64,000 nt of DNA from Psychrobacter sp. Pi2-52 (GTDB lineage Bacteria > Pseudomonadota > Gammaproteobacteria > Pseudomonadales > Moraxellaceae): assembly GCF_904846705.1 (NCBI RefSeq), contig NZ_CAJHBS010000003.1:1-64000 (forward strand), in the 5' to 3' direction. A program made the position numbers and the translations under genes. Within the stretch, counting starts at the first letter, position 1, and every line of letters begins with the position of its first letter. Under the pieces are notes generated by a model. It was not told the DNA's origin. It saw nothing but the letters and a program-made list of their open reading frames with translations, and made no database searches. Below are positions 52,499-56,292 of this stretch, piece after piece.

Positions 52499-53314
52499 TT
52501 AGAGCAATCCTTTATATAAGAAGTAACAGCCTACGACGGTCAACAGTACTGCAAAGCATTTTTTCAGCAACTGCGGCGATAATGCGTGAGCGACTTTTGC
52601 GCCTAGCTTGGCGGTAAAGAAGCTCATAATGCTAATGCCTAAAAAAGCATAGATGTGAACAAAGCCAATCGTATTGGGCACGTCGACTTGAGCTTGCATG
52701 CCAAAGAACATAAACCCTAGCGCGCCTGCAATGGCGATCGGCAATCCACATGCGGCTGAGGTTCCAACTGCTTTTTGCATAACCACACCGTAACGTGTGA
52801 GATAAGGTACGGTTAAGCTACCACCGCCAATCCCAAAAATAGCAGAAGCGATACCGATACCCGCCCCTGCTGCTAGCTGCTTAGGCTTTGAAGGCAAGGC
52901 TATATGGACATTACCAGCGTCATTATTTGCTTTCTTTTTGCCACCCATAAACATTTTATAAGCGACCCAAAGCAAAAACACACCAACAATCAACTGCAGA
53001 TATAACCCAGATATCTGTCCTGCGATCCCTGCACCTAAAAAGCACCCTATTGCTAAGCCTGGCGTCAGATTTTTAAAGACAGGCCACATGACTGCGCCTT
53101 TCTTATTGTGCGCCATGAGCGAGCTTATGGATGTAACGATGATAGTCGCTAGTGAAGTACCCAAGGCCAAGTGCATAATACTGTCAGGACTGTAACCCAT
53201 TTGCGTAAAGACAATAAATAGCAGTGGTACGATAATAGTGCCACCGCCTACTCCAAATAGCCCTGCAGCAAATCCTGCTAGCGCCCCTATTATTAAAAAA
53301 GTTATTAATTCCAC
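52499..53314 (-). CDS. TauE/SafE-family (sulfite exporter-like) membrane protein
   Basis: Inner-membrane protein of 271 residues with about eight hydrophobic segments in two repeats. Both repeats start with the family Gly-rich motif: GFAAGLFGVGGGTIIVPLL near residue 14 and ASAIFGIGGGSLTVPYLTRYG near 157. Members export sulfite, sulfoacetate or related organic anions, but most are uncharacterised. It lies 113 bases downstream of the flavin reductase on the same strand, so it may be the last gene of the methionine operon, though the spacing also allows its own promoter. Confidence 0.92.
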   Translation of the reverse strand: MELITFLIIGALAGFAAGLFGVGGGTIIVPLLFIVFTQMGYSPDSIMHLALGTSLATIIVTSISSLMAHNKKGAVMWPVFKNLTPGLAIGCFLGAGIAGQISGLYLQLIVGVFLLWVAYKMFMGGKKKANNDAGNVHIALPSKPKQLAAGAGIGIASAIFGIGGGSLTVPYLTRYGVVMQKAVGTSAACGLPIAIAGALGFMFFGMQAQVDVPNTIGFVHIYAFLGISIMSFFTAKLGAKVAHALSPQLLKKCFAVLLTVVGCYFLYKGLL

Positions 53315-53427
53315 AGGATAGTTACTTCTTATTTAGATTTAATGAGATGATAATTATAGTTAAACGACTGCTCAATATTGAACGAGCAATAGCCCATAGG
53401 CTTAGGTGTTGGATTATAGATATTGGA

Positions 53428-53943
53428 TTAAATAAGCTCCACTTGCCCCACTCTAGAATAGGCACGGTTAAAGTAAACCAACCCTTCATCAGTTCCGCCT
53501 TGTGGCTCAGCCTGATTGATGGCGACAACGCGACACATAAAGACGCTATGCGTACCGACTTCTTGAATTTGTTCAATCTCACAATCAAAACTGACTAAGG
53601 CATCTTCTAACACAGGAGCGCCTGTTTGTAATTGTATCCAAGAACCATATTCAAACCGTTCTTCTGAACACAGTTTAGAGGCAAAAGCATTGGACAGCTG
53701 CTCATGTTGCGCGCCTAATACATTGACACTCAAAATCTTGTTTTCCAGAAAGTAGCTATGTGACCGAGACGTTTGATTCATACAGACAAGCAAGGTCGGC
53801 GGTGTGTCTGTGACACTACATACTGCCGATGCTGTAAACCCATGTACGCCCGTTGCACCTGCTGTGGTCACCACATTGACCGCAGTCGTTAGCAAAGACA
53901 TGGCATCTCTAAAGTCGGTCGCGTCAATCCTATCTTTAATCAT
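53428..53943 (-). CDS. Flavin reductase domain protein (HpaC/RutF-like)
   Basis: Protein of 171 residues in the flavin reductase family, which use NAD(P)H to supply free reduced FMN or FAD to partner monooxygenases. Marks are the N-terminal FRDAMSLLTTAVNVVTTAGATGVHGFTASAVCSVTDTPPTLLVCMNQTSRSHS region (substrate/flavin loop TASAVCSVT), LSVNVLGAQHEQLSNAFA and the C-terminal VYFNRAYSRV. It lies 105 bases downstream of the core methionine synthase, and a 59-bp repeat sits in the gap. In this setting its product, reduced flavin, may serve the oxygen-dependent MesD/DUF1852 reaction; that is inference. Confidence 0.9.
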   Translation of the reverse strand: MIKDRIDATDFRDAMSLLTTAVNVVTTAGATGVHGFTASAVCSVTDTPPTLLVCMNQTSRSHSYFLENKILSVNVLGAQHEQLSNAFASKLCSEERFEYGSWIQLQTGAPVLEDALVSFDCEIEQIQEVGTHSVFMCRVVAINQAEPQGGTDEGLVYFNRAYSRVGQVELI

Positions 53944-53974
53944 TGCTTCAATCCTGAGAAACGTTAAAAAATAA

Positions 53975-54033
53975 CGTTAAAAAATTGTGCTTCAATTTTA
54001 GTTTTGCAAGGGAAATTCTCTAAATAGAATTTC
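53975..54033 (-). repeat. 59-bp double-hairpin repeat, copy 2
   Basis: Matches 7942-8000 at about 52 of 59 positions without gaps, with both stem-loops kept (AAAATTG/CAATTTT and GAAATTCT/AGAATTTC). It lies 15 bases after the stop of the core methionine synthase gene, inside the operon and in the opposite orientation to transcription compared with the nrdA copy. Confidence 0.85.
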
Positions 54034-54048
54034 CTAAATAGCTAAACT

Positions 54049-55077
54049 CTAAGCAGTTAGTTCTTGACGAACGATTTGAGCACCAGCGCTTAGTGCTGCG
54101 AGCTTACCACGTGCGACTTGGCGAGACAAAGGTGCCATGCCGCAGTTGGTCGCAGGATACAGCTTATCGGCATCAACAAATTGTAGCGCTTTGCGTAGCG
54201 TATCGGCCACCTCTTCTGGTGTCTCAATAGTGTTGGTTGCCACATCAATGGCACCGACCATCACTTTTTTACCACGAATCAATTCAATCAGATCCATAGG
54301 TACACGTGAGTTTTGACACTCCAGTGAGATGATATCGATTTTCGACTGTTGCAGTTTAGGGAACGCTTTTTCATATTCGCGCCACTCTGAGCCCAGTGTC
54401 TTTTTCCAATCGGTATTGGCTTTGATGCCATAGCCGTAGCAAATATGGACAGCTGTCTCACATTTCAGGCCTTCAATGGCGCGCTCTAAAGTCGCAATAC
54501 CCCAGTCGTTTACATCATCAAAGAACACATTAAATGCAGGCTCATCAAACTGGATAATATCGACGCCAGCCGCTTCTAATTCTTTCGCTTCCTGGTTCAG
54601 GATTTTAGCAAATTCCCAAGCCAATTTTTCACGGCTTTTATAATGACCGTCATATAACGTATCAATCATCGTCATCGGCCCTGGCAACGCCCATTTGATT
54701 GGCTGATCGGTTTGCTGACGTAAAAACTTGGCATCATCAACGAATACGGACTTTGGGCGGCTCACCGCACCAACGACTGATGGCACGCTCGCATCGTAGC
54801 GATTACGGATTTTGACCGTTTCACGCTTCTCAAAGTCGACACCATCAAGGTGTTCGATGAACGTAGTCACAAAATGCTGACGGGTCTGCTCGCCATCACT
54901 CACAATATCAATCCCTGCATGCTGCTGCTCTTGCAATGATACGCGTAGTGCATCTTGCTTGGCTTCAAGCAACTGCTCGCCCTCTAACGCCCAAGGTGAC
55001 CAAATTTTCTCTGGTTCTGCTAGCCAAGAAGGTTTTGGTAAGCTGCCAGCGGTAGACGTCGGTAATAGTAGTTTCAT
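54049..55077 (-). CDS. mesD: Core methionine synthase, MesD type (MetE C-terminal domain only)
   Basis: Methyltransferase of 342 residues that corresponds only to the catalytic C-terminal half of MetE (E. coli MetE 753 residues); the folate-binding N-terminal half is absent. The zinc ligands for homocysteine are in place: His211 and Cys213 (VHICYGYG), Glu253 (SLECQNS) and Cys312 (TNCGMAP). The start MKLLLPTSTAGSLPKPSWL is typical. Core synthases of aerobes next to DUF1852 form the MesD family, reported to need DUF1852 and oxygen but not methylfolate or cobalamin. The methyl donor is unknown. The DUF1852 gene ends 54 bases upstream. Confidence 0.92.
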   Translation of the reverse strand: MKLLLPTSTAGSLPKPSWLAEPEKIWSPWALEGEQLLEAKQDALRVSLQEQQHAGIDIVSDGEQTRQHFVTTFIEHLDGVDFEKRETVKIRNRYDASVPSVVGAVSRPKSVFVDDAKFLRQQTDQPIKWALPGPMTMIDTLYDGHYKSREKLAWEFAKILNQEAKELEAAGVDIIQFDEPAFNVFFDDVNDWGIATLERAIEGLKCETAVHICYGYGIKANTDWKKTLGSEWREYEKAFPKLQQSKIDIISLECQNSRVPMDLIELIRGKKVMVGAIDVATNTIETPEEVADTLRKALQFVDADKLYPATNCGMAPLSRQVARGKLAALSAGAQIVRQELTA

Positions 55078-55131
55078 ACGATTTATCTTCTAATTAATTT
55101 ATTTTTTATTATGTTGATGAGTGATGCTCAG

Positions 55132-56169
55132 TTAAGCGGCTTGCTTCCTAGCCGTTTCTTTATCAGCAGCTTCTTTTTGAGCAGTATCGCCTGTTACATC
55201 ATAGCTTGCAGCCCATTCCTCAAGGATTGTTTGATACGGCTTGATAAAGTGTGTTTCAGTAAATCTGCCTTGGGTCACTGCCATCTGACTGCGTTCAGCA
55301 CGGTCATAGACCACTTGAGTCAACGAATAATCTTGGTAATTCAGGCTAGGTTGATACACTTGACCAGCGCTTGAGTTGGCATTGTAAATCTCAGGACGGT
55401 AAATCTTCTGAAAGGTCTCCATAGTACTGATTGCACTAATCAGCTCAAGATCGGTGTAATCACCGAGCAAGTCCCCTGCAAAATAAAATGCTAGCGGTGC
55501 AGCGCTACCCTCAGGCTTAAAATAACGTACCGTTAAGCCCATTTTATGAAAATAGTCGTCGGTCAACGAGTATTCATCTTGCTTGTATTCAATGCCCAAT
55601 ACAGGGTGCTGATTGACAGTACGGTAGTAAGTCTTGCTGGTTGACACGCTCAGGCAAATCACAGGTTTTTTGTGAAAATGAGCGTTGTAAGCCTCTGAAT
55701 TCAGTAAGTACTGAAACAATTTGCCGTGCAACTCACCAAAATTATCTGGCGTTATGGAGGCTAGTTTTTTGTCGCGATGCTCTGGTAACACAATACTAAA
55801 ATCATAATCACGCACATAAGAGGAGAAACTGTTGCCAACCATACCGTCGATACGCTTGTTTTCTTTGTGATCCACAATCGTTGTTTTTAGCGTTTCGATA
55901 ATAGGAAAGGTCTGACCATTGCCTTTAACATCCAGATCGACAGAAATGATATCAACTTCAACAGAATAACGATCTGCTGTCAGATTGTCCCAATGCGCCA
56001 ATGCATTGAATCGATTATTAATCATGGTTAACGTTTTGCGTAAGTTCTCTTGGCGGTGCTCGCCGCGTGCCAAATTTGCAAAATTAGTTGTCAAACGCGT
56101 GCTATCTGCAGGCTGATAGTTTTCGTCAAAACGAATGTGCTTAATTGAACAATTGAATTCTTTACTCAT
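55132..56169 (-). CDS. mesX: DUF1852 protein, MesD partner (MesX)
   Basis: Protein of 345 residues in family DUF1852, with no predicted membrane segment or signal peptide. It begins MSKEFNCSIKHIRFDENY and contains RLTTNFANLARGEHRQENLRKTL and a DGMVGNSFSSYVRDYDFS block. I see no classic cofactor-binding motif. The family occurs beside short MetE proteins in aerobic gamma-proteobacteria such as Acinetobacter, and the protein is genetically required for MesD activity. It may generate or hand over the methyl group in an oxygen-dependent step; this is inference. It is the first gene of the operon, with a MetR-like palindrome upstream. The last ~25 residues are Ala/Lys/Glu-rich. Confidence 0.9.
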   Translation of the reverse strand: MSKEFNCSIKHIRFDENYQPADSTRLTTNFANLARGEHRQENLRKTLTMINNRFNALAHWDNLTADRYSVEVDIISVDLDVKGNGQTFPIIETLKTTIVDHKENKRIDGMVGNSFSSYVRDYDFSIVLPEHRDKKLASITPDNFGELHGKLFQYLLNSEAYNAHFHKKPVICLSVSTSKTYYRTVNQHPVLGIEYKQDEYSLTDDYFHKMGLTVRYFKPEGSAAPLAFYFAGDLLGDYTDLELISAISTMETFQKIYRPEIYNANSSAGQVYQPSLNYQDYSLTQVVYDRAERSQMAVTQGRFTETHFIKPYQTILEEWAASYDVTGDTAQKEAADKETARKQAA

Positions 56170-56269: not shown

Positions 56270-56292
56270 TAAGATGAATTTCATTCATCTTA
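56270..56292. promoter_or_regulatory. MetR-like operator upstream of mesX
   Basis: TAAGATGAA (56270-56278) and TTCATCTTA (56284-56292) are a perfect 9-bp inverted repeat with a five-base spacer. Its core TGAATTTCATTCA matches the MetR consensus TGAA-NN(A/T)NN-TTCA exactly. MetR is a LysR-type activator that uses homocysteine as co-inducer. The centre lies about 64 bases before the likely transcription start, the classic place for LysR-type recognition sites. No metR gene is in the window. Confidence 0.72.

Follow-up and report, generated by a model that had tools for sequence, protein, structure and literature searches.

Most described methionine synthesis proceeds via methyl-folate or corrinoids. 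An O2-driven methyl source for which two genes are enough in Escherichia coli was published in 2021, and here we describe a locus that is almost certainly of this kind in Psychrobacter sp. Pi2-52, located in a stretch of 64,000 nucleotides (referred to below as the window) from contig NZ_CAJHBS010000003.1. The locus consists of mesX, mesD, a flavin reductase gene and a gene for a TauE-type permease.

The closest described system is that of Price, Deutschbauer and Arkin (PMC7857596), in which MesD requires MesX and O2, and not MetF. Together, mesX and mesD rescued E. coli delta-metE and delta-metF strains in air and did not do so without air, and O2-dependent activity without methyl-folate or B12 is published only for relatives of the proteins considered here (PMC7857596). 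That MesX supplies the methyl group was inferred by the same authors, who also noted that a flavin reductase is often nearby (ACIAD3522 near the pair of Acinetobacter baylyi, Ga0059261_2931 near that of Sphingomonas koreensis) and predicted that MesX uses a flavin (PMC7857596). Some PLSDB records are already named "putative oxygenase MesX". A literature search that covered few subscription journals and no preprints found no later paper that, judged by its title, the opening of its abstract or term counts, names the methyl donor or the cofactor or presents a structure of MesX. As far as the literature was searched, the new elements here are the patchiness of the reductase and its repeated recruitment, the association with TauE, the presence in Psychrobacter of a MetR site and a MetR gene, and the finding that no fold could be matched to MesX with confidence.

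Identity and linkage of mesX and mesD

Family assignments identify the locus, with near certainty, as the Psychrobacter copy of the published MesX/MesD methionine route. Its MesX matches PF08908 along the entire model (positions 1-323/323; 8.9e-174; 577.4 bits against a cut-off of 25), and its MesD matches PF01717 (Meth_synt_2; 3.9e-38), the NCBIfam methionine synthase model NF006589 (702.7 bits, cut-off 392) and the MesD structure PDB 3rpd (3e-199). With PF08267, the model of the folate half of MetE, MesD scores 21.3 bits, below the cut-off of 27, which leaves the catalytic half only. Seven MesD residues (S12, E63, D178, H211, C213, E253 and C312) are identical in 122 of 122 aligned MesD sequences. 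We take H211, C213, E253 and C312 to be the zinc ligands, as in MetE. S12, E63 and D178 are the homocysteine residues, given by Price et al. as Ser22, Glu73 and Asp188 in a numbering shifted by 10 (PMC7857596). The window MesD is 89.5% identical over 342 residues to that of the A. baylyi type strain. Price et al. used an identity to ACIAD3523 of about 55% or 72% (PMC7857596), and the window protein lies above both values, as judged on the type-strain MesD (L102) and not on strain ADP1.

The original prediction, made from the letters of the window, had described four minus-strand genes in this order, including a MetE that lacks its folate half and keeps its zinc ligands. All four frames were recovered with exact coordinates, the alignment and the PF08267 score bear out the description of MesD, and both the identity of the operon and its O2-dependent, folate-independent function agree with the published pair (PMC7857596). 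For the most part, that reading coincides with the published model, including the question left open there.

Linkage was read in 123 mesX loci, comprising those of the 80 closest relatives (the best 80 of 591 confirmed, a set that leans to Moraxellaceae) and 43 from a phylum sample of 398 evenly drawn genomes (212 genera), which includes the genome of the window. Loci L082 and L189, both of 4523 bases, are in all likelihood the same contig, making one double among the 123. Locus L038, whose coordinates contained a stop, was left out of alignment A1; alignments A2 and A3 comprise 69 of the 80 closest loci plus the window, 11 having been omitted to thin the set (among them L075, near a contig end, and L119, a second copy). 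The nearest named loci among these best 80 of 591 are from Psychrobacter, with MesX proteins 98-99% identical to that of the window. With broken copies included, PF08908 occurs in 97 of 100 genomes from the genus; it is also present in 44 of the 398 phylum-sample genomes (27/212 genera). Wherever both genes are present, mesD is found downstream of mesX in the same orientation (121/121 loci), at a distance of 260 base pairs (bp) or less in 120; in the remaining locus (L187, genome G180), msuE is situated between the two. The two loci without the pair are L075, which ends at the contig end, and L119, which has no mesD match.

L119 is a second mesX of Acinetobacter sp. S54 (NZ_JACVUI010000002.1) with no adjoining mesD, and the other copy in that assembly (L109) has both mesD and a reductase. 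The genome with the mesX-msuE-mesD operon also harbors a second, broken mesX-mesD fragment (L188; G180:C1:2170000-2182000). In two Alcaligenes loci (L108, L117), mesX is directly preceded by a full-length metE (763-764 amino acids) in the same orientation. The MesD proteins of family f11 (L187 of G180, L165 of G294 and L181 of G323) are much more divergent, scoring 416-441 bits against the window MesD (56% identity in L044), and retain all seven zinc and homocysteine residues. Finally, mesX matches 209 records of the plasmid collection PLSDB, a few of them chromosome-sized, from Pantoea, Acinetobacter, Agrobacterium, Acetobacter, Rhodococcus and others, and the pathway therefore probably moves between bacteria.

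The features of the locus are listed in the table below, and the gaps between its four genes are 54, 105 and 113 bp in the order of transcription. The third gene product matches PF01613 (Flavin_Reduct) at 3.9e-38. Its best-scoring model is TIGR03615 (RutF), at 201 bits against a cut-off of 254.75, and because the score is below the cut-off, the protein is classed by sequence as RutF-like and not as RutF. The permease matches PF01925 at 1.7e-52 (178.9 bits, cut-off 32.6).

Table. Features of the mesXD locus of Psychrobacter sp. Pi2-52, in window coordinates
Feature	Coordinates	Strand	Details
mesX (DUF1852, PF08908 "Putative oxygenase MesX")	56169-55132	minus	345 amino acids, ATG start; open frame, Pfam
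mesD, core methionine synthase	55077-54049	minus	342 amino acids, ATG start; open frame, PF01717, NF006589
Flavin reductase, PF01613, RutF/HpaC-like	53943-53428	minus	171 amino acids, ATG start; open frame, Pfam
TauE/SafE (TSUP) permease	53314-52499	minus	271 amino acids, GTG start; open frame, PF01925
Perfect 8+5+8 palindrome with MetR consensus	56271-56291		105 bp upstream of the mesX ATG

Flavin reductases beside mesXD and the chemistry of MesX

In 64 of the 80 closest loci, the gene after mesD, in the same orientation, encodes a PF01613 reductase, and an MsuE-type reductase adjoins the pair in 2 more. Across the phylum sample, a PF01613 reductase follows mesD in 3 of 44 genomes (the window's own, G005 and G414), and a reductase of either type stands beside mesXD in 7 of 44. 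MsuE belongs to a different family (Pfam FMN_red) that is not homologous to PF01613; MsuE neighbours scored 258.6 and 231.4 bits against TIGR03566 (cut-off 212.5). Its gene lies directly upstream of mesX in two Janthinobacterium loci (L121, L136), on a Comamonas plasmid and in three genomes of one genus of family f13 (L168, L170 and L171). The 44 genomes contain 10 MsuE genes above the cut-off, 4 of which, from two genera, adjoin mesX.

A tree of 29 of the 66 adjacent PF01613 reductases, the window's own (making 30) and 20 non-adjacent ones separated the adjacent genes into a group of Moraxellaceae plus Wohlfahrtiimonas (support 0.745), a group of Rhizobium/Pseudochrobactrum (1.0) and, apart from the Moraxellaceae, a group of beta-proteobacteria with Pseudomonas and others (0.997). 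A single clade for all adjacent PF01613 reductases was rejected in the approximately unbiased (AU) test (p 3e-7). This points to at least two origins of adjacent PF01613 reductases and, with MsuE included, to at least three origins of reductases beside mesXD. Because a single origin of the PF01613 type was rejected, we take this repeated recruitment to argue more strongly for a functional link with reduced flavin than a single operon passed down by inheritance would. That unrelated flavin reductases were recruited repeatedly sharpens what was a remark on neighbouring genes into a prediction open to testing in vitro, namely that MesX and MesD would function with any flavin reductase, NADH, flavin and O2.

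The record of locus L120 (JAHREI010000005.1), whose reductase clusters with that of Pseudochrobactrum L127, is labelled Bacillus subtilis SK6B4, an organism name that is probably wrong.

We propose that MesD methylates homocysteine bound to its zinc, and that MesX would provide the methyl group from a common metabolite in an O2-requiring step. This step would use reduced flavin, a diffusible cofactor that any flavin reductase present in the host could deliver, with Moraxellaceae having retained a RutF-like reductase in the mesXD operon. MetR would activate mesX when homocysteine builds up, that is, when MetH is without B12. Taken as a whole, this combination of the MesX/MesD route, a flavin-fed MesX and a MetR switch seems to us the reasonably probable explanation; on the specific point that reduced flavin feeds MesX, we consider the balance to be even. 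More tentatively, and with less than even expectation on our part, MesX could be the founder of an unrecognised oxygenase fold, in which free reduced flavin and O2 serve to detach a methyl group from a central metabolite for transfer to zinc-bound homocysteine, bypassing folate and cobalamin, with a reductase hooked up at least three times and the TauE-type permease moving a partner compound.

Several observations weigh against this explanation. Reductase absence was judged for the PF01613 and MsuE types only, and neither type is found beside mesXD in 37 of the 44 evenly drawn genomes, one of which (G446) has a PF01613 match only below the cut-off. Genomes G326 and G440 have mesX and no PF01613 match, other reductase families not having been searched, and their MsuE-like matches are weak (33.1 and 31.6 bits). 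Among 10 plasmid regions, whose gene tables are incomplete, no reductase is annotated beside mesXD in 8, and the other 2 (Comamonas and Acinetobacter) have an adjoining one. A joint clade of the Moraxellaceae and Rhizobium/Pseudochrobactrum reductases was not rejected (AU p 0.14), and a count of three PF01613 origins was accordingly given up, as two suffice. The MsuE neighbours may themselves stem from one or two events. In addition, mesX and mesD alone are sufficient for complementation of E. coli, so that a dedicated reductase is dispensable in that host (PMC7857596). The reductase is not peculiar to this genome, but neither is it a fixed third gene, as the original prediction had presented it.

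The predicted structure of MesX does not settle the matter in favour of flavin either. An AlphaFold2 model (predicted local distance difference test, 85.4; predicted template modelling score, 0.85) gave no confident fold match to a flavin monooxygenase or an iron oxygenase in structure searches. Luciferase-type, acyl-CoA-dehydrogenase-type and Rossmann-type monooxygenases and cupins were not seen among the fold matches listed, which does not by itself exclude them. No solved MesX structure was found by sequence search, single or profile, and no relation to a known flavin monooxygenase was found by sequence. The window MesX contains no GxGxxG and no CxxC, in keeping with the earlier remark that DUF1852 has no recognisable cofactor motif. 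The idea of a reduced-flavin step is already present in the published work (PMC7857596).

The lack of a confident likeness to flavin enzymes leaves room for a metal-dependent MesX, for example a non-haem iron oxygenase, in which H148, H188 and acidic residues such as E194 would bind the metal and the reductase would keep it reduced via free reduced flavin. H148, H188 and C172 are the only His or Cys residues of the window protein that are identical in all 124 aligned sequences, E194, D121, D123, E260 and D289 are the same in 98% or more, and the published need for O2 (PMC7857596) would suit such an enzyme. However, there is no conserved HxD/E, with His 59, 101 and 131 retained in 84, 71 and 100 of 124 sequences, and no cupin or 2-oxoglutarate oxygenase is among the fold matches listed, although this carries no proof. 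We regard a metal-dependent MesX as unlikely.

The reductase might also be a general helper that shares the operon by chance, with MesX needing neither flavin nor reductase. The 37 sampled genomes with neither reductase type beside mesXD and the dispensability of the reductase in E. coli (PMC7857596) are what this account would lead one to expect. It fits poorly with the fact that two or more PF01613 lineages, as well as the non-homologous MsuE, adjoin mesXD, and that reductase genes occupy three different places (after mesD, before mesX and between the two), and we judge chance sharing to be quite improbable. A MesX that is a distant GNAT-fold enzyme, binding acyl-CoA and taking the methyl from the acyl group in an O2-dependent manner, is very improbable.

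Regulation, methionine genes and the TauE permease

The palindrome upstream of mesX contains the MetR consensus ATGAA-N5-TTCAT at 56274-56288, the only match in the window, where 0.13 would be expected. We consider MetR control of mesX in Psychrobacter to be likely, judging from conservation of the site and the presence of the regulator gene. Of the 123 mesX upstream regions, 34 contain an exact site and a further 56 have a best site with a single mismatch, compared with 0.2% and 3.6% in sequence resampled from each upstream region by a Markov model, a control that does not consist of real promoters. In 24 Psychrobacter loci (L066-L087, L089 and L090), which are mutually related, the site has at most one mismatch in all 24 and is exact in 17, starting at -113 to -144; in Acinetobacter it is often weaker. 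The genome encodes a MetR ortholog (L056; G000:C2:32953-33789) that is 47% identical to E. coli MetR, at 270 bits versus 59 for the next match.

Counts of the site by themselves speak less clearly for this control. One exact site also occurs in 13 of 100 shuffles of the window, and the stricter ATGAATN3ATTCAT, exact at two places genome-wide, occurs with at most one mismatch at 18 sites versus 16 for a control pattern. The genome-wide counts are uninformative, and the weight rests on conservation. MetR responds to homocysteine, and PF08908-metE2 has been placed in MetR regulons of Proteobacteria (PMC4239095). In Acinetobacter baumannii AB5075, B12 lowers the DUF1852 gene by log2 -8.33 and the flavin reductase gene ABUW_3196 by log2 -2.52 (PMC12892962). 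MetR control would fit this effect of B12 on Acinetobacter mesX, because MetH with B12 consumes homocysteine.

A LysR-type regulator is annotated near mesXD, on either strand, in 5 of the 10 plasmid regions (L250, Rhodococcus; L253, Acetobacter; L255, Salipiger; L256, Comamonas; L258, Acinetobacter). Riboswitch control was rejected, as no Rfam family reached its gathering score in the window, and a promoter and terminator scan gave matches as in shuffles (9 versus 8.7 and 3 versus 3.6).

The host genome (3.25 Mb, 99.99% complete) harbors one full metH (1670 bits) and metF. No full metE was found, MesD being the sole PF01717 match in the genome; metH and full metE were the genes whose presence the original prediction had left to be checked. 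The de novo B12 marker CobI/CbiL, the one marker used, reaches 67 bits at best (cut-off 163), in a 551-amino-acid frame that is probably CysG. Because metH is full, no full metE was found and CobI/CbiL does not exceed its cut-off, MesXD looks like a B12-free partner of MetH, which probably depends on outside B12. A second, partial match to TIGR02082 (50.6 bits) lies in a 337-amino-acid frame (L002; G000:C16:2326-3123), which from its sequence may be a stand-alone homocysteine methyltransferase.

The association between TauE and mesX looks real. Among the matches listed, 10 of the 43 other phylum-sample genomes with mesX have a TauE gene no more than about 3 kb away from mesX, and 10 of the 197 TauE genes in these 43 genomes are near mesX versus about 0.3 expected (7 kb in about 4.4 Mb). 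These 10 genomes are not independent, as they represent 6 genera and 4 families and include five genomes of one genus. Among the 80 close relatives, TauE is found in the mesX neighbourhood (within about 4.5 kb) in 36. In a tree of 20 of the 41 adjacent TauE genes, that of the window and 40 others, the adjacent genes form three lineages plus a single one (L159). Their arrangements are also three: downstream on the same strand (Moraxellaceae), divergent upstream (f16, Colwellia) and downstream on the opposite strand (f9/f31). These several lineages and three arrangements speak against TauE as one conserved operon partner. A sulfonate or sulfite as the methyl source, a candidate prompted by TauE and MsuE, was not retained, since mesXD is functional in E. 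coli grown in minimal glucose M9 medium (PMC7857596).

Comparison with known systems

The presence of a small reductase gene beside that of an O2-dependent enzyme is a feature shared with two-component flavin monooxygenases (MsuD/MsuE, HpaB/HpaC, RutA/RutF and HsaA/HsaB), and the reductases adjoining mesX score best against the reductases of such systems. MesX itself is unlike these monooxygenases, with no sequence relation found and no confident fold match.

With the MetR regulons described in PMC4239095, the locus shares the ATGAA-N5-TTCAT site upstream of mesX together with a MetR ortholog. MetR was reported there to be missing from Moraxellaceae, on the basis of 4 genomes (PMC4239095), whereas this genome of the Moraxellaceae has one.

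The closest likeness is to the MesD/MesX system. Compared with A. baylyi (ACIAD3523/ACIAD3524) and S. koreensis (Ga0059261_2929/2928), we find the same two proteins and a flavin reductase nearby, with MetH also present and no full MetE found. The gene order here is also the order in the relatives that were read. What sets the Psychrobacter locus apart from the systems of Price et al. is the TauE gene after the reductase, a word that does not occur in the main text of that article (PMC7857596), and the exact MetR-type site upstream of mesX. These differences do not change the kind of system to which it belongs.

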